Assembly (NCBI RefSeq): GCF_025642155.1
Contig: NZ_CP106798.1
Location: 3,596,001 to 3,660,000, forward strand
Direction of reading: 5' to 3'
DNA length: 64,000 bases
DNA from: Streptomyces sp. HUAS 15-9
GTDB lineage: Bacteria > Actinomycetota > Actinomycetes > Streptomycetales > Streptomycetaceae
Made by a program: the position numbers and the translations under genes. This document shows, one piece after another, positions 44,030 to 52,735 of the stretch. Within the stretch, counting starts at the first letter, position 1. Every line of letters begins with the position of its first letter. The notes under the pieces were generated by a model. It was not told the DNA's origin. It saw only the letters and a program-made list of their open reading frames with translations, and made no database searches.

Positions 44030-44226
44030 CGGAGAGACAGAAAAAATCTGAGTTAACGCGGGTAACACCCGAGGTCAGGAGCCTTTTTGCGTAGTAAGCG
44101 CATACCGACCGTCCAGTTTGGTGAAAACGTCGCGCACCCCGGAGCCTGCGAGTAGCGTGCGTGGCTCGCAACCCCCAATCTCCCTGCGGTCCGCCGCCAC
44201 GGACCCGAGCCGGCAAGGAGCACGGG

Positions 44227-44772
44227 ATGTCCCACGACCCGTATCCATCCGTCCCGTCTTCGTACCCCTCCCCGTCCCCGTATCCATCCGTCCCGTCTTC
44301 GTACCCCTCCCCGTCCCCGTATCCCTCCGCCCCGTCCCCGTATCCACCCCCACCATCCCCGTATCCCTCCGCCTCCTCCCCGTACCCACCCGCCCCGCCG
44401 CATCTCACCTACCCGTGGCAGCCGCTGCCCACCGAACTGCCCAGGCCCCGCCCCCGGCCCCACCGCACCCCCCTCGGCCACCACAGCGACCTGCGGGTCC
44501 TGCGCACCGCCTACCGCTGGCAGCGGCGCACCGCCACCCTCACCGCCCTCGGCTACTTCACGCTCTTCCTCGTCCTGTCGGCGTTCGCCCCGGACGTCAT
44601 GAGCAGCACATTCACCGACGGCATCCCCACCGGACTGCTCCTCGCGCTCCTCCAACTCCCCGTCACCTGGCTGGCGATCGCGCTGTACGAACACACCGCG
44701 CGCCGCCGTGTCGACCCGATCGCGGACCGCATCCGCAAGCAGGCGGAGCTGGACGCCAGGCGGGGGGCGTGA
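44227..44772 (+). CDS. DUF485-type small membrane subunit with Tyr/Pro/Ser repeat tail
   Basis: This 181-residue protein begins with about 75 residues of YPS(V/A)PSSYPSPSP-type repeats. A DUF485-like part follows: DLRVLRTAYRWQRRTATLTALGYFTLFLVLSAFAPDVM and a second helix GLLLALLQLPVTWLAIALYEHTARRRVDPIADRIR. DUF485 proteins are usual partners of acetate/solute symporters such as ActP, and the symporter gene starts 3 bp downstream. The ATG at 44227 has AAGGAG 6 bp upstream. The repeat tail contains a perfect 39-bp duplication. Confidence 0.85.
   Translation: MSHDPYPSVPSSYPSPSPYPSVPSSYPSPSPYPSAPSPYPPPPSPYPSASSPYPPAPPHLTYPWQPLPTELPRPRPRPHRTPLGHHSDLRVLRTAYRWQRRTATLTALGYFTLFLVLSAFAPDVMSSTFTDGIPTGLLLALLQLPVTWLAIALYEHTARRRVDPIADRIRKQAELDARRGA
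44242..44319 (+). repeat. Perfect 39-bp tandem duplication
   Basis: Positions 44242-44280 and 44281-44319 are identical. They encode YPSVPSSYPSPSP twice in the N-terminal tail of the DUF485 protein, and imperfect copies continue after them. Confidence 0.9.
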
Positions 44773-46438: not shown

Positions 46439-47326
46439 TCACTCGAGCGCGGCCTGCCCGGTCAGCGACGTCAGGCTGTCGCGCATGTGATCCATGTGTG
46501 CCTGCACGTCGTCCCACCGTTCCCCGTGCTCGCGCAGCATCCGCTCCGTCTCCCGCGCGATCCGGTCCTCCCGCACCCGCGCCGCGGCAACGAGATCGGC
46601 GGCACGCGCGTGTGCCTCCTCCTGGCACCGCCGTGCCGCCGCCTCCGCCTCCCCGAACTCCCGTTTCGCCTCGGCCAGCGCGGCCTCGGCCCGGGCCAAC
46701 TGCTCGACGTGCCGCTTCTCGAGCGCGGCGGCCAGTTCTACGGCCTCCCGGTCGGCCTCGGCCCACCGTTCGGCGTGCTCCCCGGCCTGCCCGGCGAGCA
46801 TCGCCTCGGTGCGCTGCCGCACCTCCCGCAACGCGGCGAGCGCCTCGCTGCGCCCCTCCTTCACCTCGCGCCGGGCGCCGATACGCAGGTTGTCCGCCTC
46901 GGCGCGGGCCGCGAGGAGCCGCTGCCGGGAGCGTTCCTCGGCCTCCGCACGCAGCGCGTCCGCCTGTTCCTGCGCCGTGCGGCGCACCTCCAGGGCGTGC
47001 GCCTCCGCCTCGGCGAGATGTTCCCGTGCCTCGCGCCGCGCGCCCTCCCGCACATCCGCCGCTTCTTCCGCCGCGAGCTGGAACACGCGCCGTGCGCGCT
47101 CCCCGAGCGTCTCGTACGTCTGCGGCGCGAGCCGCGCGACCCTCTCGCGCAGCCGTTCCGCCTCCGCCCCCATGTCCTTGGCGAGCACGGTGAGCCGTGC
47201 GGCCCGCTCCCACGCGGCGTCGCGGTCCCGGGAGAGTGCCGACGCGTACACGTCGACCTGCTCGGGGCGGTAGCCGCGCCCCCGGGCGGTCGCGAAGCGG
47301 TACGGCGACTCCGAAGCGCTGCTCAC
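46439..47326 (-). CDS. Long coiled-coil protein (Scy/FilP/DivIVA-like, cellulose-binding-protein annotation type)
   Basis: This 295-residue protein is almost wholly helical. After a short N-terminal segment (SPYRFATARGRGYRPEQVDVYASALSRDRDAAWER) that resembles the DivIVA/Scy N-terminal region, it is Ala/Glu/Arg coiled coil to the end, with a final MDHMRDSLTSLTG amphipathic helix. Such proteins act as cytoskeletal or polarity scaffolds in Streptomyces hyphae; that role is inferred. The GTG at 47326 has GAGGGG 8 bp upstream. A strong promoter candidate lies at 47400-47429. Confidence 0.78.
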   Translation of the reverse strand: MSSASESPYRFATARGRGYRPEQVDVYASALSRDRDAAWERAARLTVLAKDMGAEAERLRERVARLAPQTYETLGERARRVFQLAAEEAADVREGARREAREHLAEAEAHALEVRRTAQEQADALRAEAEERSRQRLLAARAEADNLRIGARREVKEGRSEALAALREVRQRTEAMLAGQAGEHAERWAEADREAVELAAALEKRHVEQLARAEAALAEAKREFGEAEAAARRCQEEAHARAADLVAAARVREDRIARETERMLREHGERWDDVQAHMDHMRDSLTSLTGQAALE

Positions 47327-47399
47327 CGTGGAACCCCTCTCCACCCGCCCCACACGCACCGACGATGGTGCGCACATCTTTATGGAACAGGCGCAAGTG

Positions 47400-47454: not shown

Positions 47455-47502
47455 AAGGGCAGGGCCCGGCCGTACGACTTCGTACGACCGGGCCCTGCCC
47501 TT
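47455..47502 (-). terminator. Strong terminator of the SUKH/deaminase operon
   Basis: AAGGGCAGGGCCCGG (47455-47469) with its extension CCGTACGA pairs with the complementary arm at 47480-47502 over 23 bp with one mismatch. It lies about 30 bp after the stop at 47532. Confidence 0.8.
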
Positions 47503-47531: not shown

Positions 47532-48731
47532 TCACAGCAGCCCGTCCCACATCTGCTCCAGCAGCACCGACCACCAGCTCTCCGGCGAACCCAGCGCGGC
47601 CGGGTCGAGCGAGGCGAGCTGCGCCTGGAAGTCGACGGTCCAGCGGCCCGCCTGCTCCTGGTTCAGACCGAACCTCAGCCGCCACATCCGGCCCAGCAGC
47701 GCCAGACAGCGCGCGAACTCCGGCAGCCCGCTGTTCACGAACTGCGCCGGTACGGGAGCACCGCCCGGCCCCGCCTCCACGGGGACCGCGACGATGTTCG
47801 CCGTGCCGTACTGCACACAGATCGCCTTGCCGAAGTCGGTGCCCATGACCAGGTACGAGCCCGCGTCCGGAGCCGGCTGCACGCCCCGCTCCTGCGCCAG
47901 CTCCGCCAGCGTCGGCACCGGACGGCCCGGCTGGGCCTGCGCCCAGAAGAACGGGCCCATGTCCAGCGGCAGTCCGGCCGCCACCAGCGTGTGCGCCACG
48001 ACCGGCGGCACACCCTGCCGCGACACCGCCGCCTGCTCGAACCGGAACACCCCCGGCCCGAACGCAGCCGCCAGCTCCTGAGCGATCGCCTCCGGCGGGA
48101 CCGGCTGCGCCGGCGGCACCTGCGGCACCGGCATCCGCACCGGCGCCGGCCGCGCGGGCCCGTCCGCCACCTGGTGCAACTCACCCTGGTGCGCCAGCAG
48201 TTGCTGCATGCCCTGCTGGCGGCTCGCGTGGTCGGTGCCGTACGGCGCGATGCTCGTGATCCGCGCCTGCGGCCACTGCTCCCGGATCATCCGCGCGCAG
48301 TAGGCACCCGGCAGCGCACACGACTCCAGCTCCGTGTGCAGCTCCAGCACCTGGTCCGGCGGCACGTTCATGGCGCGCAGCTCGTGGAAGATCTGCCACT
48401 CCGGGTGCGGCGTACCCGGCGCCGAACGCCGGATCAGCTGCTGCTCGGAACCGTCCTGGGCGCGGTAGCGCAGCACGGCCTGATACCCCGGGCCGACCGT
48501 CGGCTGCCCCTGCGGCGGATAGCCGTACGCAGGAGGCTGCTGCCCGGGCACGGGCTGACCCGGCATGGGCTGGCCCGGCACCGGCTGTCCAGGCGGCGGC
48601 ATCGCGCCGTGCGGTGGCATCGGCTGCGGGGCGCCCGGGGGCACGCCGGGAGCGCCCGGCATCCCGGGCACGCCGGGGGCCTGCGGCGGCGGGGGCGCGC
48701 CGGGGCCGGCCACCGGGGGCGCGGCCAGCAC
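47532..48731 (-). CDS. Deaminase-like plus SUKH-4 C-terminal ORF of the frameshifted gene
   Basis: This is the largest intact piece (399 codons) of the frameshifted gene; I doubt it starts independently. After a Pro/Gly/Gln linker (to about residue 80) comes a segment like XOO_2897-type nucleic-acid deaminases: H109-P-E111 in GTPHPEWQIFHEL, and a Cys pair C138/C145 in ELESCALPGAYCARMI. These stand where the zinc-binding HxE and PCxxC motifs belong. Residues about 205-399 (FRFEQAAVSRQGVPPVVAHTLVAAGLPLDMGPFFWA..., SYLVMGTDFGKAICVQYGTANIVAVPVE) match the SUKH-4 immunity family. SUKH domains neutralise nucleic-acid-degrading toxins in contact-dependent and related systems. Confidence 0.7.
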   Translation of the reverse strand: MLAAPPVAGPGAPPPPQAPGVPGMPGAPGVPPGAPQPMPPHGAMPPPGQPVPGQPMPGQPVPGQQPPAYGYPPQGQPTVGPGYQAVLRYRAQDGSEQQLIRRSAPGTPHPEWQIFHELRAMNVPPDQVLELHTELESCALPGAYCARMIREQWPQARITSIAPYGTDHASRQQGMQQLLAHQGELHQVADGPARPAPVRMPVPQVPPAQPVPPEAIAQELAAAFGPGVFRFEQAAVSRQGVPPVVAHTLVAAGLPLDMGPFFWAQAQPGRPVPTLAELAQERGVQPAPDAGSYLVMGTDFGKAICVQYGTANIVAVPVEAGPGGAPVPAQFVNSGLPEFARCLALLGRMWRLRFGLNQEQAGRWTVDFQAQLASLDPAALGSPESWWSVLLEQMWDGLL

Positions 48732-50319
48732 GGTCTCCGCGTGATGTACGGCCTCTCGCGCGCCCCCGCAGCGCCCGGAGGCTGGGGAGCGCCGGGGCCC
48801 GCCGGAGGCATACCGGGGGCTCCGGGAGCGCCTGGCGGAACCGGTGCGCCGGGCACACCCGGAATGCCCGGGGCGCCGGGCGGCTGCGGCGCGCCCCCGC
48901 CCGTGCCCCCGCCCATCTGGGACGGGTCGGCCAGCACCGTGGCCGCGTGATGCACATTGCCGGGAGGCGTGCCGCCCGGCGCACCGGGCGGGTTGGGGGC
49001 ACCCGGCGGAGTCGGCGCGCCCGGCGCACCCGGTCCGGCCGGACCCTCCGGCCCTTCGGGACCGAGCGGCGACATGAGCTGGGTCGGCACATACCCACCC
49101 GCCGACGCGCCCGGAGCACCCGGGGCGGGCGGCGGCGGAGGCGTGCTCCCCGGCCGCGCGCCCGGCGCACCCGGAACACCCGGCGGCGGAGGCGGCGCGC
49201 CCACCGGGCCCCGCGGCCGACGCGGCGGCGGCGCGGCCTTGCTGGTCGCTGCGTCCGCGATGTCACTGGCGTTGGGCGCCAGCGGACGCCCCGGACCGGC
49301 CGGGGGACGAGGCGCCTCCGGCACACCGCCCGGCGTCTGCGGGTAGCCGTACCCGGGGCCGCCCGGAGGCGGAGTGCCCGGCCGGCGGGAGCGCCGGGAC
49401 CCTGGGGGTAGCCGTACGTGGGCGCGGCCGGCGGCGCGGCACCCGCAGGGGGCGTACCCGGAGCCGCCTGCCCCTGCGGATAGCCGTACGGAGGCGGAGG
49501 CGGCGTGCTGCCCTGCGGCGCGCCGGGCACACCCTGATCGCCGAGCGCCGGAGTGACCGCCGTCGGCGGCAGATGGCTGCCACCCGACATCAGCGCCGTC
49601 TTGGCGTCCGGCGGCGTGGCTCCGTCACCGGAGTCGCTCAGCGGCGGCGCGAACACCGTCGCGGGCAGCGGCACGGAGCGGTCCTCACCGGCGTCCGCGT
49701 TGGTGTCCGTACCGGCCCAGGGCGTCGCACCGGCAGGCACACCGTGCGCCCCGTCACCCGGCTCGGCACCACCCGCGGCCGGCCACCCCGCACCACTGCC
49801 CCCGGAACCGACCGGAGTCCCCGGCGCGGGAGTCGCCGCGGCAGGCGGCGCGGCAGAGGGCTCCGCGGCCGCGGCCGTGGGCACCCCGGCCTGCGTCTGG
49901 GGAAGCTCACCGTCCGACGAGCGCCGATCCGGGATCCCCAGCTTGTCCGCCGCCTCCTGCAACCATTCCGGCGGGCTCAGCAGGAACGACGTCTGGTTCA
50001 GATCCACGCGGGCCGCGGGCGCCGGCACCGCGTCCTCGACCTCGTCCGCACGGCCGTACTCCTCCTCGTACCGGCGGATCACCTCACCCACCGGCAGCGC
50101 CGGCCACAGTGTCGCCTCACCGCTGTCCCGCGCGATGACGAGCCGCTGCGCACCCGCGTCCGAACGCGGCCCCTCCGCACGGTCCTCGCCCCACACCACA
50201 AAACCGAGGTCGAACTCCCGCACCCGCACCTCACGGTGCTGATACGCCGGAACGTCCCCGTTGATCCACTCTTCCGCGCGCTCCTGCGCCTGCGCGAACG
50301 TCACCATCGCCGAGCTCAC
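47532..50319 (-). pseudogene. Imm35-like / Pro-Gly-rich / deaminase / SUKH-4 gene with two apparent frameshifts
   Basis: One gene appears to be split over three frames. The first frame (50319 down to about 49380) encodes a YrhB/Imm35-like domain (REFDLGFVVWGEDRAEG, LWPALPVGEVIRRYEEEYG) and the start of a Pro/Gly/Tyr-rich linker. The second (about 49380-48760) continues the linker (PPPGVPGAPG runs, NVHHAATVLADPSQ). The third (about 48760-47532) resumes at EAVHHAETVLAAPP and gives the deaminase-like and SUKH-4 parts. Each shift is explained by one missing base, near 49377-49386 and near the C5 run at about 48746-48765. The gene may be truly broken or the sequence wrong. The GTG at 50319 (or ATG at 50307) is coupled to the preceding gene by a GTGA overlap. 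Confidence 0.75.
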
Positions 50320-51305
50320 TCCCCCATGGAAGAGACCGGAACGGCATGCGCGAAACCGCCGTCCACCATCAGGTTCGCCACCGTCTCCAACTCCGGCGGA
50401 CTGCCCGCCAGCCGGGACAGGAACGCGTCGAAGTCGTCACCGCACGGCAGCAGCAACCGCTCCACACGCTCCGCCGGAGACATCGAAGGATCCACGTCCC
50501 GCGCATCGTCGTACGCGCAGAACCACACCGAACCGAGCCGCTCGCCCTTCACCTTCACCGCGAGCAACCCGCCCTGCACGAAGGCCACACCCAGGTAATC
50601 CTTCGTCAGATGGTCACGCAGGCACTTGTTCACATAGACCAGGTCATTGACCGCAGCCTCGTCCCGCACCGTGAAGAACGGCTGGTCCACCAGCAGCCCC
50701 AGCTCCGCGTCCAGTGCCGTGCCCACCGGCGCGCAGCCGCCCGCCGCCTTGAGGAAGGAGCGGTACGCACCCGGCAGCCGGTACCCCAGGTCCTCCTCGA
50801 CCCCCTGCACCTGCTGCTCGGTCACCGCGACACCCGACTTCGGCAGCCCGACATGCGCCGGACGAGTCTCCTGCAACGGCCGCGTCCCCCGCTTGCCGTG
50901 GTCCACCCGCGCCGTCGCCAGACCGGCGTGGTGCCGCAGCAACGCCTTCACCTCGACCGGAACCAGCTCCAGCCGCCGCGAACCGACCACGTGATGCCAC
51001 GTCCAGCCGTGCGGCGTCGCCACCTCCGGCACCGTGTCCCACAGGTCGTGCCCCGTCGCCGACAACGCCGCGTTCGCCGACACATAGTCCGTCAGCCGCA
51101 ACTCGTCGACACCGAAACCCTCGGGCGGTTCGGCGATCTCCGCGGCCGCGCGCGCGTAGGGCGAGAAGTCGGGGTAACCGTGCTCATCGATACGTACCCC
51201 TCTCGGGTGACGTGCCGCCCGGACCGGATCCGGGAAATGCACGACCTGCCCGGCATAGGCCGCGTTCGGCGGCGCGGCTTGCTGCCCGAGCCGACCTGTC
51301 GTCAT
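50316..51305 (-). CDS. LHH/HNH-type nuclease-like domain fused to SMI1/KNR4 (SUKH-1) domain
   Basis: This 329-residue cytosolic protein joins two modules of polymorphic toxin systems. Residues about 40-130 (GYPDFSPYARAAAEI, DYVSANAAL, GHDLWDTVP, HGWTWHHVVGSRRLELVPVEVKALLRHHAGL) follow the pattern of the HNH/EndoVII nuclease toxin type with TWHH...LVP...H. Residues about 160-305 (VTEQQVQGVEEDLGYRLPGAYRSFLKAAGGCAPVG...) are an SMI1/KNR4 SUKH-1 immunity domain. The ATG at 51305 has AGGGGG 8 bp upstream. It is the first gene of the minus-strand operon and is divergent from the YwqJ-deaminase gene; the 297-bp gap between them should hold both promoters. Confidence 0.8.
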   Translation of the reverse strand: MTTGRLGQQAAPPNAAYAGQVVHFPDPVRAARHPRGVRIDEHGYPDFSPYARAAAEIAEPPEGFGVDELRLTDYVSANAALSATGHDLWDTVPEVATPHGWTWHHVVGSRRLELVPVEVKALLRHHAGLATARVDHGKRGTRPLQETRPAHVGLPKSGVAVTEQQVQGVEEDLGYRLPGAYRSFLKAAGGCAPVGTALDAELGLLVDQPFFTVRDEAAVNDLVYVNKCLRDHLTKDYLGVAFVQGGLLAVKVKGERLGSVWFCAYDDARDVDPSMSPAERVERLLLPCGDDFDAFLSRLAGSPPELETVANLMVDGGFAHAVPVSSMGE

Positions 51306-51602
51306 GGCGGTTGCCCCCTGCGGCACTCTGTACGAACCGAAACCGCACCATATGTGGCACGCGACGGTCCGTATTCGACTGTCTCTGCAACGTCTACGAC
51401 ACGTTGACCGCGCGCATCGCGGTGCCGACAGCCTATGCGGTACACGGACACCGGTCACCGGGCCTCCACTTCCGTGACCAGCCGTCACCCCGCCGTGACA
51501 GCCTGCCCAAACCCGGGCGTGTCGCACCGCCCCAGCTTCCGCACCAGCCACGGCATTTGGCACTCTGTGACCTTCGGGGGACGCCCGGAAGGGATGATGA
51601 TC

Positions 51603-52145
51603 ATGAATGTGACGCAGACGGGACCACACGCGGACACCCGCACCGGCGGCAGACACAACCACGCCTCGGACGACCCCCGCGTCGGCTGGAGCCACGCCGA
51701 AACCCCACACGCCCCCGCCCTCCTGCACCGCCGCGACGGCATCACACCCACCGTCGCCGCCGCCCTCTCCGTCCGCGGCGCCACCCTCACCGCCACCGCC
51801 GCCCGCGGCGACGAACCCCCACCCCTCCACCCCCTCGTCCAGGACTTCCTCGACACCCTCACCAGCGCACAGCGCGACCGCTTCACCGGCCGCTGCGCCG
51901 AAACCCTCCTCATATCCCGCCACATCACCGCCGCCGACGCCGCCCGCAGCAAGCGCGCCGCCCGCAAGCCGATGACCAACGGCGAGGCCCGCAGAGCCCT
52001 CAAGCAGGCCAAACTCACCGCCCGCCGGATACGCGAGGACGGCGACCCCCTCCACGGAGGCTTCGCCGCACCCTGCCGCGCCTGCACCGCACTCAGCGCC
52101 CACTTCGGCGTCCGCGTCGTCGCCCCGGCGACCGACGGCGGCTGA
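51603..52145 (+). CDS. YwqJ-like nucleic-acid/nucleotide deaminase domain protein
   Basis: This 180-residue protein matches the YwqJ-related deaminase family found in bacterial toxins. C98-A-E100 in RFTGRCAETLLISRHI supplies one zinc ligand and the catalytic Glu. P157-C-R-A-C161 in APCRACTALSAHFGV supplies the other two cysteines. HPLVQDFLDTL precedes the core, as is typical. No secretion signal or long toxin-delivery N terminus is present, so it is not an obvious exported effector. The ATG at 51603 is 9 bp from GAAGGG; in-frame ATGs at 51594 and 51597 are too close. A SUKH-3 gene follows. Confidence 0.82.
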   Translation: MNVTQTGPHADTRTGGRHNHASDDPRVGWSHAETPHAPALLHRRDGITPTVAAALSVRGATLTATAARGDEPPPLHPLVQDFLDTLTSAQRDRFTGRCAETLLISRHITAADAARSKRAARKPMTNGEARRALKQAKLTARRIREDGDPLHGGFAAPCRACTALSAHFGVRVVAPATDGG

Positions 52146-52240
52146 CCCCCAAAAACACCCATCACGCCGGCGCCGCAAAGGCACAGAACCCGCACATCAA
52201 GCACGCGCACCACGCAACCAACTCGACGATCGAAGGGCAG

Positions 52241-52735
52241 ATGCACACCGACCGCACCTCAACCACCCGCTTCCCGGTACCCATCGACGCCGCCCTGCGC
52301 GCCGCCGGCTGGCAACCCGGACGCTGGGACATCAAGCAGGCCGAGGTCTGGGCCGACACCCTCCGCGAACACACCTCACCCGCCGGACACCGGCACACCG
52401 TCTTCCCCGCGGCCGTCGAGGCCTGGGCCGAATTCGGCGGCCTCAGCATCACCCCGGTCGGCCCCGGCCGCCAGGTCGCCCCCGCCGTCCTCGACCTCGA
52501 CCCGCTGCACGGCCTCCACCTCGCCCGCACCCTCGGCGACCTCGGCCGCGCCCTCGACACCGAGCTCTGCCCCCTCGGCGAGGAGACCGAGACCCACTCC
52601 CTCCTCACCATCGACGCCGAAGGCCGCGTCTACACCCTCGACCACACCGGCGACTGGTACCTCGGCCCCGACATCGACCACGCCCTGACGGCACTCATCG
52701 CGGGCATCGAACCCGTACGGCTCACAACCGGCTGA
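52241..52735 (+). CDS. SUKH-3 family immunity protein
   Basis: This 164-residue cytosolic protein shows the SUKH-3 pattern: ALRAAGWQPGRWD, WADTLREHT...HTVFPAAVEAWAEFGGLSITPVGPG, then LGDLGRALDTELCPLGEETE and VYTLDHTGDWYLGPDIDHALTALIAGI. It is the likely partner of the deaminase encoded 95 bp upstream on the same strand. SUKH-3 proteins are immunity factors for nucleic-acid-targeting toxins. The ATG at 52241 is close to AAGGG. Confidence 0.83.
   Translation: MHTDRTSTTRFPVPIDAALRAAGWQPGRWDIKQAEVWADTLREHTSPAGHRHTVFPAAVEAWAEFGGLSITPVGPGRQVAPAVLDLDPLHGLHLARTLGDLGRALDTELCPLGEETETHSLLTIDAEGRVYTLDHTGDWYLGPDIDHALTALIAGIEPVRLTTG

Follow-up and report, generated by a model that had tools for sequence, protein, structure and literature searches.

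The enzyme and immunity domain families considered here were reportedly first described by Iyer et al. in 2011 and Zhang et al. in 2011. SUKH proteins are listed as the immunity proteins for toxins with Tox-WHH, YwqJ and XOO_2897 domains, and occasional toxin-SUKH fusions are noted, in the available portion of the description of polymorphic toxin systems by Zhang et al. (2012; PMC3482391). A cluster made up of these same families is located at positions 47532-52735 of a 64,000-nucleotide stretch of the Streptomyces sp. HUAS 15-9 genome (contig NZ_CP106798.1, positions 3,596,001 to 3,660,000), hereafter the window. As far as that portion goes, the cluster has the toxin families and the immunity superfamily in common with the polymorphic toxins, as well as their hallmark of an immunity gene or domain beside the toxin, but no trafficking domain was found in it, and it shows no C-terminal swapping in 20 regions and occupies a fixed, family-wide orthologous locus, while the toxin-SUKH fusions which are occasional in polymorphic toxins are the rule for two of its three enzymes. 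The cluster is a resident core chromosomal locus of the Streptomyces family, and it behaves neither as a swapped polymorphic toxin nor as a patchy defence island, since it is near-universal and syntenic, has few and distant mobile copies, and displays invariant catalytic motifs and, in its fused proteins, low ratios of nonsynonymous to synonymous substitution rates (dN/dS). We suggest, with a probability of about 0.5, that it represents a caged intracellular enzyme module which stays silent until a signal releases the enzymes, rather than a weapon against neighbours.

Other described systems share single aspects of this arrangement. The deaminase DddA and its immunity protein (6u08) match in fold only; DddA is a type VI secretion effector according to the title of that entry, whereas no secretion part was found in the cluster, where the inhibitor-type domain lies on the same chain as the deaminase. 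The YobK protein of Bacillus subtilis (2prv) and yeast Knr4 have the SUKH fold, which in the cluster forms the C-terminal part of a chain that also contains a deaminase. The internal conflict systems of Kaur et al. (2020; PMC7159879), in the part of that article that was available, likewise confine tightly controlled effectors to the interior of the bacterium, Streptomyces being among the examples, but they are nucleoside triphosphate (NTP)-dependent according to its title, while no Pfam NTPase domain is found in the four proteins of the cluster, and SUKH does not occur in the main text of the article.

Pfam comparison of six separate reading-frame pieces from the cluster identified three SUKH domains, two deaminase domains and one nuclease domain, all above the curated cut-offs, as had been proposed in an initial annotation of the window made from the sequence alone. 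The features of the encoded proteins are as follows, with expectation values (E) for the Pfam matches.

50316..51305, minus strand: WHH nuclease - SUKH-1 fusion protein, 329 amino acids (Pfam, invariant motif, family profile matches)
50904-51026, minus strand: match to WHH (PF14414; E: 1.1e-12; Pfam)
50415-50825, minus strand: match to SUKH-1 (PF09346; E: 2.7e-11; Pfam)
47532..50319, minus strand: gene for an N-terminal domain, Pro/Gly/Ala linker, XOO_2897 deaminase and SUKH-4 domain (Pfam on separate frames; tblastn of intact relatives)
50035..50307, minus strand: conserved N-terminal domain of approximately 90 amino acids (own profile; no Pfam name)
48735..49992, minus strand: Pro/Gly/Ala-rich linker with a repeated, threonine-centred short motif (motif count against shuffles)
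48189..48494, minus strand: XOO_2897-type deaminase domain (PF14440; E: 2.7e-37) with H-P-E and C-x6-C motifs (Pfam, alignment, model)
47553..48083, minus strand: SUKH-4 domain (PF14435; E: 1e-47; Pfam; structural match to YobK, Knr4 and Syd)
51603..52145, plus strand: YwqJ-type deaminase (PF14431; E: 3.9e-24, in the frame 51606-52145), ATG at 51603, domain at 51741-52109, with C-x-E and P-C-x-x-C motifs (Pfam, alignment)
52241..52735, plus strand: SUKH-3 protein (PF14433; E: 1.5e-59; Pfam; near-constant neighbour of the YwqJ gene)

The fusion of effector and immunity modules within the same proteins, also part of the initial annotation, is confirmed by Pfam for the WHH-SUKH1 and XOO-SUKH4 proteins, both matches of the latter deriving from the frame 47532-48731 on the minus strand, and such fusions recur elsewhere. 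The CxE and PCxxC motifs of the YwqJ deaminase are likewise present as described. The nuclease, however, had been assigned to the LHH type, while the protein matches WHH and Colicin-DNase (PF12639) and yields no LHH match at E<=1. Similarly, the Imm35-like identity given to the N-terminal domain of the SUKH-4 protein finds no support, as this domain matches no Pfam family at E<=1 in the window, in the family relative L049 or in the three distant proteins where it is detected by our own profile (L104, L105 and L113), and no Pfam label is carried by the 120 homologues listed of 141. The GTG start of the SUKH-4 gene overlaps the stop codon of the WHH-SUKH1 gene by four bases (GTGA), with a further in-frame ATG at 50307, and because of this overlap the two genes probably form one operon. 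On the plus strand, 95 bases separate the end of the YwqJ gene from the SUKH-3 gene.

The distribution of the enzymes was determined in 200 genomes of the family to which the window belongs (Streptomycetaceae), its own genome included. The XOO deaminase model (PF14440) matches 198 of these genomes, the WHH-SUKH1 profile 195 and the YwqJ profile 199, and when non-core matches are discounted core copies are counted in approximately 193, 192 and 198, respectively. Given the near-universal presence in 198, 195 and 199 of the 200 genomes, a patchy defence island was dropped as a candidate. A single match per genome was obtained in 172/195 genomes for WHH-SUKH1 and in 181/199 for YwqJ, and the genera named on the matching proteins are Streptomyces, Streptantibioticus, Actinacidiphila and Kitasatospora. 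Two of the misses (G133 and G131) may be assembly gaps, since the WHH gene of the former lies 95 bases from a contig end and the SUKH-3 gene of the latter begins at base 2 of its contig. At wider range, PF14440 matches 10/296 genomes of the phylum (nine from the genus of the window, one weak), WHH-SUKH1 matches 34/296 genomes of the class (28 from this genus, two at E about 1e-50 and four weaker) and YwqJ 30/296 (28 from this genus and two of a Micromonospora type). In the distant WHH-SUKH1 relatives of two class genomes (G501 and G683; L102 and L103), WAH or WTH stands in place of WHH, and the nuclease may be dead in these proteins.

The gene order, a survey of which had been proposed with the initial annotation, is strongly conserved among the family relatives and not random. 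The WHH-SUKH1 gene adjoins the SUKH-4 gene in 20/20 fetched regions, and the minus-strand operon retains the same domains in all of them, with no swapping of C-terminal toxins. YwqJ lies within the stretch in 19 of these regions, two of which end just past this gene, and in all seventeen regions holding both genes SUKH-3 is found next to it. The YwqJ-SUKH3 pair has been moved approximately 28 kilobases (kb) in one genome (G025), where it is still together. In eleven of twelve additional or odd genomes YwqJ adjoins SUKH-3; a contig end interrupts the remaining one. Distances were compared from the places listed for 149, 150 and 150 genomes in the XOO, WHH and YwqJ searches, respectively, rather than from all 200. 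WHH and XOO places are both listed for 137 genomes, in 125 of which they share a contig, always within 4 kb, while in the remaining 12 they lie on different contigs of draft assemblies. For WHH and YwqJ, both listed in 136 genomes, the two places share a contig in 134; they are no more than 4 kb apart in 128 genomes and no more than 10 kb apart in 133.

Several observations weigh against a caged module fixed as a core locus of the family. The raw count for the XOO deaminase includes five genomes (G004, G020, G031, G038 and G029) with only weaker, other proteins, and PF14440 often gives further, weaker matches, up to seven per genome. The WHH-SUKH1 count includes three genomes of the genus g5 which match only at about 1e-70, the G004 copy that was read sitting in a different cluster (L113). 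The YwqJ copies of G133 are found only near a WXG100-like toxin, and approximately 2 kb separate YwqJ and SUKH-3 in G015 (L110). Three genomes of the genus g2 have no WHH-SUKH1 match; in the two of these that were read (L096 and L097), as in G004 of the genus g5 (L098), the place is occupied by the YwqJ-SUKH3 pair alone, still near glmU.

The catalytic motifs are intact throughout the relatives that were aligned. W103 H104 H105 and H125 H126 of the WHH domain, as well as HPE and C-x6-C of the XOO domain, are invariant in 21/21 sequences, the window's own included for WHH, while CxE and PCxxC of YwqJ are found in 19/19 aligned sequences and in all 120 matches listed of 1761 homologues. Elsewhere there are exceptions, namely HCxxC in place of PCxxC in G098 and a stop codon within the YwqJ match of G023. 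The nuclease and the deaminases therefore look active. In addition, dN/dS was estimated by the method of Nei and Gojobori (NG86) for three pairs with related genomes; read as a comparison between genes rather than as absolute values, with synonymous rates uncorrected for the extreme guanine-plus-cytosine (GC) content, the ratios are 0.12-0.17 for the deaminase-SUKH4 part, 0.12-0.17 for WHH-SUKH1 and 0.17-0.20 for GlmU, compared with 0.22-0.29 for the adjacent kinase, 0.32-0.49 for YwqJ, 0.26-0.50 for SUKH-3 and 0.35-0.61 for the neighbouring DivIVA-like protein. By domain, XOO is the most constrained (0.03-0.14), the other values being 0.12-0.18 for SUKH-4, 0.10-0.20 for WHH and 0.10-0.18 for SUKH-1. 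The fused proteins are hence under purifying selection and are constrained about as much as GlmU, an essential enzyme of cell-wall precursor synthesis, or more so.

Structure modelling, one of the checks suggested with the initial annotation, gave a divided result. For the XOO-SUKH4 protein, AlphaFold and structure search recovered a deaminase fold and a SUKH fold with middling scores, nucleoside cytidine deaminases being among the top structural hits for the deaminase domain, whereas the WHH-SUKH1 model (21 rows) is too poor to use, with a predicted local distance difference test (pLDDT) score of 41, and its nuclease fold, which would be a His-Me finger, rests on sequence profiles. A sequence search of solved structures with four alignments gave nothing convincing, the best being a weak, 22-residue match between one of them (A1) and type VI Rhs proteins (E: 0.017).

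The constraint on the fused proteins, the core distribution and the cytidine deaminase-like structural matches would also be consistent with housekeeping regulators or RNA-modifying enzymes, which work constantly on cellular RNAs or nucleotides and in which the SUKH domains bind substrates or partners and are not brakes. We consider this explanation unlikely, as the domain families and their pairings are those of toxin-immunity pairs, so far as the accessible part of PMC3482391 describes them, and the YwqJ-SUKH3 pair was kept even when it was relocated in G025.

In the caged-enzyme reading, each SUKH domain would bind and block its enzyme, in cis within the WHH-SUKH1 and XOO-SUKH4 proteins and in trans for YwqJ and SUKH-3, by analogy with SUKH proteins that do so for secreted toxins. 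The linker of the SUKH-4 protein, which comprises 21-38% proline and 8-22% glycine, carries a threonine-centred motif of the ATMLAxP / PATVFAPP / PTQL type, examples being DLEATSFLLSP, PATVFAPP, GYVPTQLV and HHAATMLAxP. The linkers of 19 intact relatives contain 91 copies in total, each linker having between three and seven, whereas 200 shuffles gave 2.8 on average and never more than 9. The window linker holds three copies in the frame 48181-50319, two in the frame 48434-49324 and one in the third frame. Such motifs resemble sites for serine/threonine kinases or for readers of phosphothreonine, and the linker with its three to seven motifs may act as a switch, being phosphorylated by such a kinase or read by a phosphothreonine-binding partner, which would free or recruit the deaminase. 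The trigger for this release could be related to development or stress and would act through the linker, and the freed nuclease and deaminases would then act on nucleic acid of their own cell, for example in a dying or differentiating mycelial compartment. A DNA pattern for the motif gave 12 matches genome-wide against 11 for its reversed control, three of the 12 falling in the SUKH-4 gene (two at copies of the motif in the linker, the third on the opposite strand), and with this one pattern no other gene with a clustered motif and no partner was found in the genome.

As a tentative extension of the caged-enzyme reading, the cluster could represent a toxin arsenal domesticated into a core, self-caged editing and cutting machine that acts on the cell's own nucleic acid, with a parallel in APOBEC-like enzymes, in which the SUKH domains are the brakes, the multi-threonine linker is a phosphorylation switch, and the output serves mycelial differentiation or the death of a compartment.

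The same effector and inhibitor logic, together with the lack of delivery parts, would suit a built-in anti-phage system acting by abortive infection, in which a phage releases the caged enzymes and these kill or mutate within the infected hyphal compartment, and the available part of PMC7159879 makes the case that a mycelial way of life favours internal conflict systems. A conflict or defence role was also favoured in the initial annotation, but it is not supported: a presence in approximately 96-99% of the family genomes, a conserved genomic place, few and distant plasmid copies, no phage match for the three enzyme genes and no match for the cluster proteins in PADLOC-DB are all unusual for defence islands. 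A near-universal and syntenic rather than patchy distribution, and purifying selection rather than diversification, make this explanation improbable. NCBIfam likewise gave no match for the cluster proteins. The 50,697 phage records, among which SUKH-3 was not searched, gave no match to WHH-SUKH1, to YwqJ or to the XOO-SUKH4 part. The 72,556 plasmid records searched yielded YwqJ in one (38% identity), WHH-SUKH1 in two (35% and 25%), the XOO-SUKH4 part in four (30-35% over a third of its length) and SUKH-3 in 11 (29-35%). A mobile toxin-antitoxin pair was dropped as a candidate given these few, distant plasmid matches and the missing phage matches for the three enzyme genes. One Streptomyces plasmid (NZ_CP108603.1, 53233-54062) harbors a distant YwqJ gene (38%) beside a SUKH-3 gene (35%), and the pair thus exists off the core locus.

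Fusions and non-core copies of the same domains are found in several relatives. A single open frame of 349 codons in G098 (L100, 8305-9351) encodes both YwqJ and SUKH-3; HCxxC stands in place of PCxxC in this frame and part of the sequence between the motifs is missing. The Micromonospora protein annotated as SUKH-3 domain-containing, of approximately 410 amino acids, unites the N-terminal domain, the YwqJ deaminase and SUKH-3 in one chain, with both Pfam domains in 120/120 matches listed of 439. It differs from the cluster in being one gene as opposed to a divergent four-gene set, in carrying HAE instead of CxE, and in its presence in 70/150 genomes of that family, not all at full length, some having N-YwqJ and SUKH-3 in neighbouring frames. 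HAE and CxxC are kept in all 120 matches listed, while the stricter pattern with proline before the cysteine pair fits 93 of them. The N-terminal domain was recognized by our own profile both here and in G004, where it is fused behind SUKH-3. Three further loci (L099, L108 and L111) encode proteins of approximately 290 amino acids with SUKH-4 ahead of the XOO deaminase, L108 with a second SUKH-4-like gene nearby; these reverse-order proteins look like a second, non-core kind of caged deaminase. Because YwqJ-SUKH3, N-YwqJ-SUKH3, SUKH4-XOO and SUKH3-N fusions recur, the domain set appears to shuffle as a unit, each enzyme staying together with its SUKH domain.

Probable delivered toxins of the same families also persist in relatives. 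A long frame in L113 (G004:C1:2092000-2106000) combines papain-fold toxin domains with a C-terminal WHH domain, and this region further holds a SUKH-1 gene, a separate WHH-SUKH1 gene, a YwqJ gene and the SUKH-3 gene fused to the N-terminal domain, a mosaic that looks like the kind of repertoire which may have given rise to the core locus. In L106 (G133), a long frame contains a WXG100-like domain and a C-terminal YwqJ domain, with SUKH-3 behind it; like the long frame of L113, it has the look of a polymorphic toxin. Tandem YwqJ and SUKH-3 pairs are seen in L106 and in L107 (G038), and the pairs of both loci probably belong to type VII polymorphic toxins with YwqJ tips, within the same family. 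The likely origin of the core locus is a polymorphic-toxin repertoire that lost its delivery parts and was then fixed; relatives still have long toxins with a terminal WHH domain and WXG100-like toxins with YwqJ at the end.

The shared families, and the existence in the same family of WXG100-like toxins that end in YwqJ and are followed by SUKH-3, could alternatively mark the cluster as a polymorphic-toxin cassette or polyimmunity locus, in which the SUKH proteins guard against the toxins that relatives make, while the enzyme domains are either cassettes without expression or remnants; the consulted portion of Zhang et al. (PMC3482391) describes both polyimmunity loci and toxin cassettes that stand alone. 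This is quite improbable for the core locus, where the enzyme domains are roughly as constrained as the SUKH domains or more so, the catalytic motifs are invariant, a delivery region is lacking and the minus-strand operon shows no cassette swapping in 20 regions.

Pfam revealed no delivery, secretion or trafficking domain in the cluster proteins, and hydropathy gave no membrane or signal segment, the highest 19-residue values being 1.3 for the window pieces and 1.6 for the relatives, against 2.7 for a neighbouring transporter and 2.4 for the kinase. The statement of the initial annotation that neither secretion signal nor delivery region is present accordingly stands, and judging from their sequences the proteins of the core locus do not appear to be delivered toxins. 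Although YwqJ is linked to a WXG100-like domain in a relative, it is very improbable that the cluster encodes cargo of an unconventional route (type VII, contractile injection or release by lysis) which acts outside the cell without a signal peptide, as a domain of this kind is absent from all four proteins and, for two of the three enzymes, export would carry the inhibitor along on the same chain as the toxin.

The domain families are already known, as are immunity by SUKH proteins and the occasional fusion of a toxin to SUKH, but a family-wide core, syntenic and constrained set of three enzymes, leashed in cis and with a conserved threonine-motif linker, has not been described as far as searches of open-licence full text show. 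No paper on the module was found in this literature, which leaves most subscription journals outside, and a term search of a developmental review of 100 actinobacterial genomes (PMC4255298) returned no mention of SCO3115-SCO3119 or of deaminases. Such genes are commonly interpreted as armament directed at neighbours or phages, and here they belong to the core genome of a bacterial family that is central to industry. If the caged-enzyme reading is true, self-editing and cutting by domesticated deaminases and nucleases could be asked about directly in ordinary laboratory Streptomyces, and a route would open to asking how SUKH spread from toxin immunity to yeast Knr4.

The SUKH-4 gene of the window is broken into three reading frames, a state missed in the initial annotation. 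Comparison by tblastn with intact relatives places these at 50307-49381, 49282-48914 and about 48821-47535, while the gene is a single open frame of 691-1027 amino acids in 19/20 fetched relatives. Among 149 genomes listed, the window's own included, 25 have an open frame of fewer than 690 codons around the deaminase, through a frame change or a contig end. As both frame changes of the window fall in the repetitive, GC-rich linker, our first guess is a sequencing or assembly indel, with a real lesion in the gene as the alternative.

Two non-coding features flank or divide the cluster.

51306..51602, no strand: divergent intergenic region with conserved elements CAGCCTA (WHH side) and CATTTGGCA (YwqJ side) (motif counts)
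47456..47501, no strand: long GC-rich inverted repeat directly after the SUKH-4 stop codon (read from the sequence)

CAGCCTA is present in 15/16 and CATTTGGCA in 9/16 intergenic regions, where the maxima for 7-mers and 9-mers in shuffled sequences average 9 and 4, respectively, and the region is a probable bidirectional promoter. The inverted repeat is a probable end of transcription, parting the cluster from the DivIVA-like gene; a scan for consensus terminators called none at this repeat.

The cluster is neighboured by the DivIVA-like gene and by a histidine kinase gene. The former (46439-47329) encodes a fast-evolving coiled-coil protein and adjoins the cluster in 20/20 fetched relatives. 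A nearby gene, which we take from its sequence to be glmU, is presumably SCO3122 in S. coelicolor; on this assumption, and because SCO3119 is an orphan histidine kinase, we infer from gene order that the cluster should match about SCO3115-SCO3118 of that species. SCO3119 is listed as an orphan histidine kinase in the available part of PMC9739842, and named as a possible AtrA target in that of PMC13170358. Further along the window, a DUF485 protein (44161-44772) encoded upstream of a sodium:solute symporter begins with a repetitive Pro-Ser-Tyr tail composed of SPYPS-type repeats.

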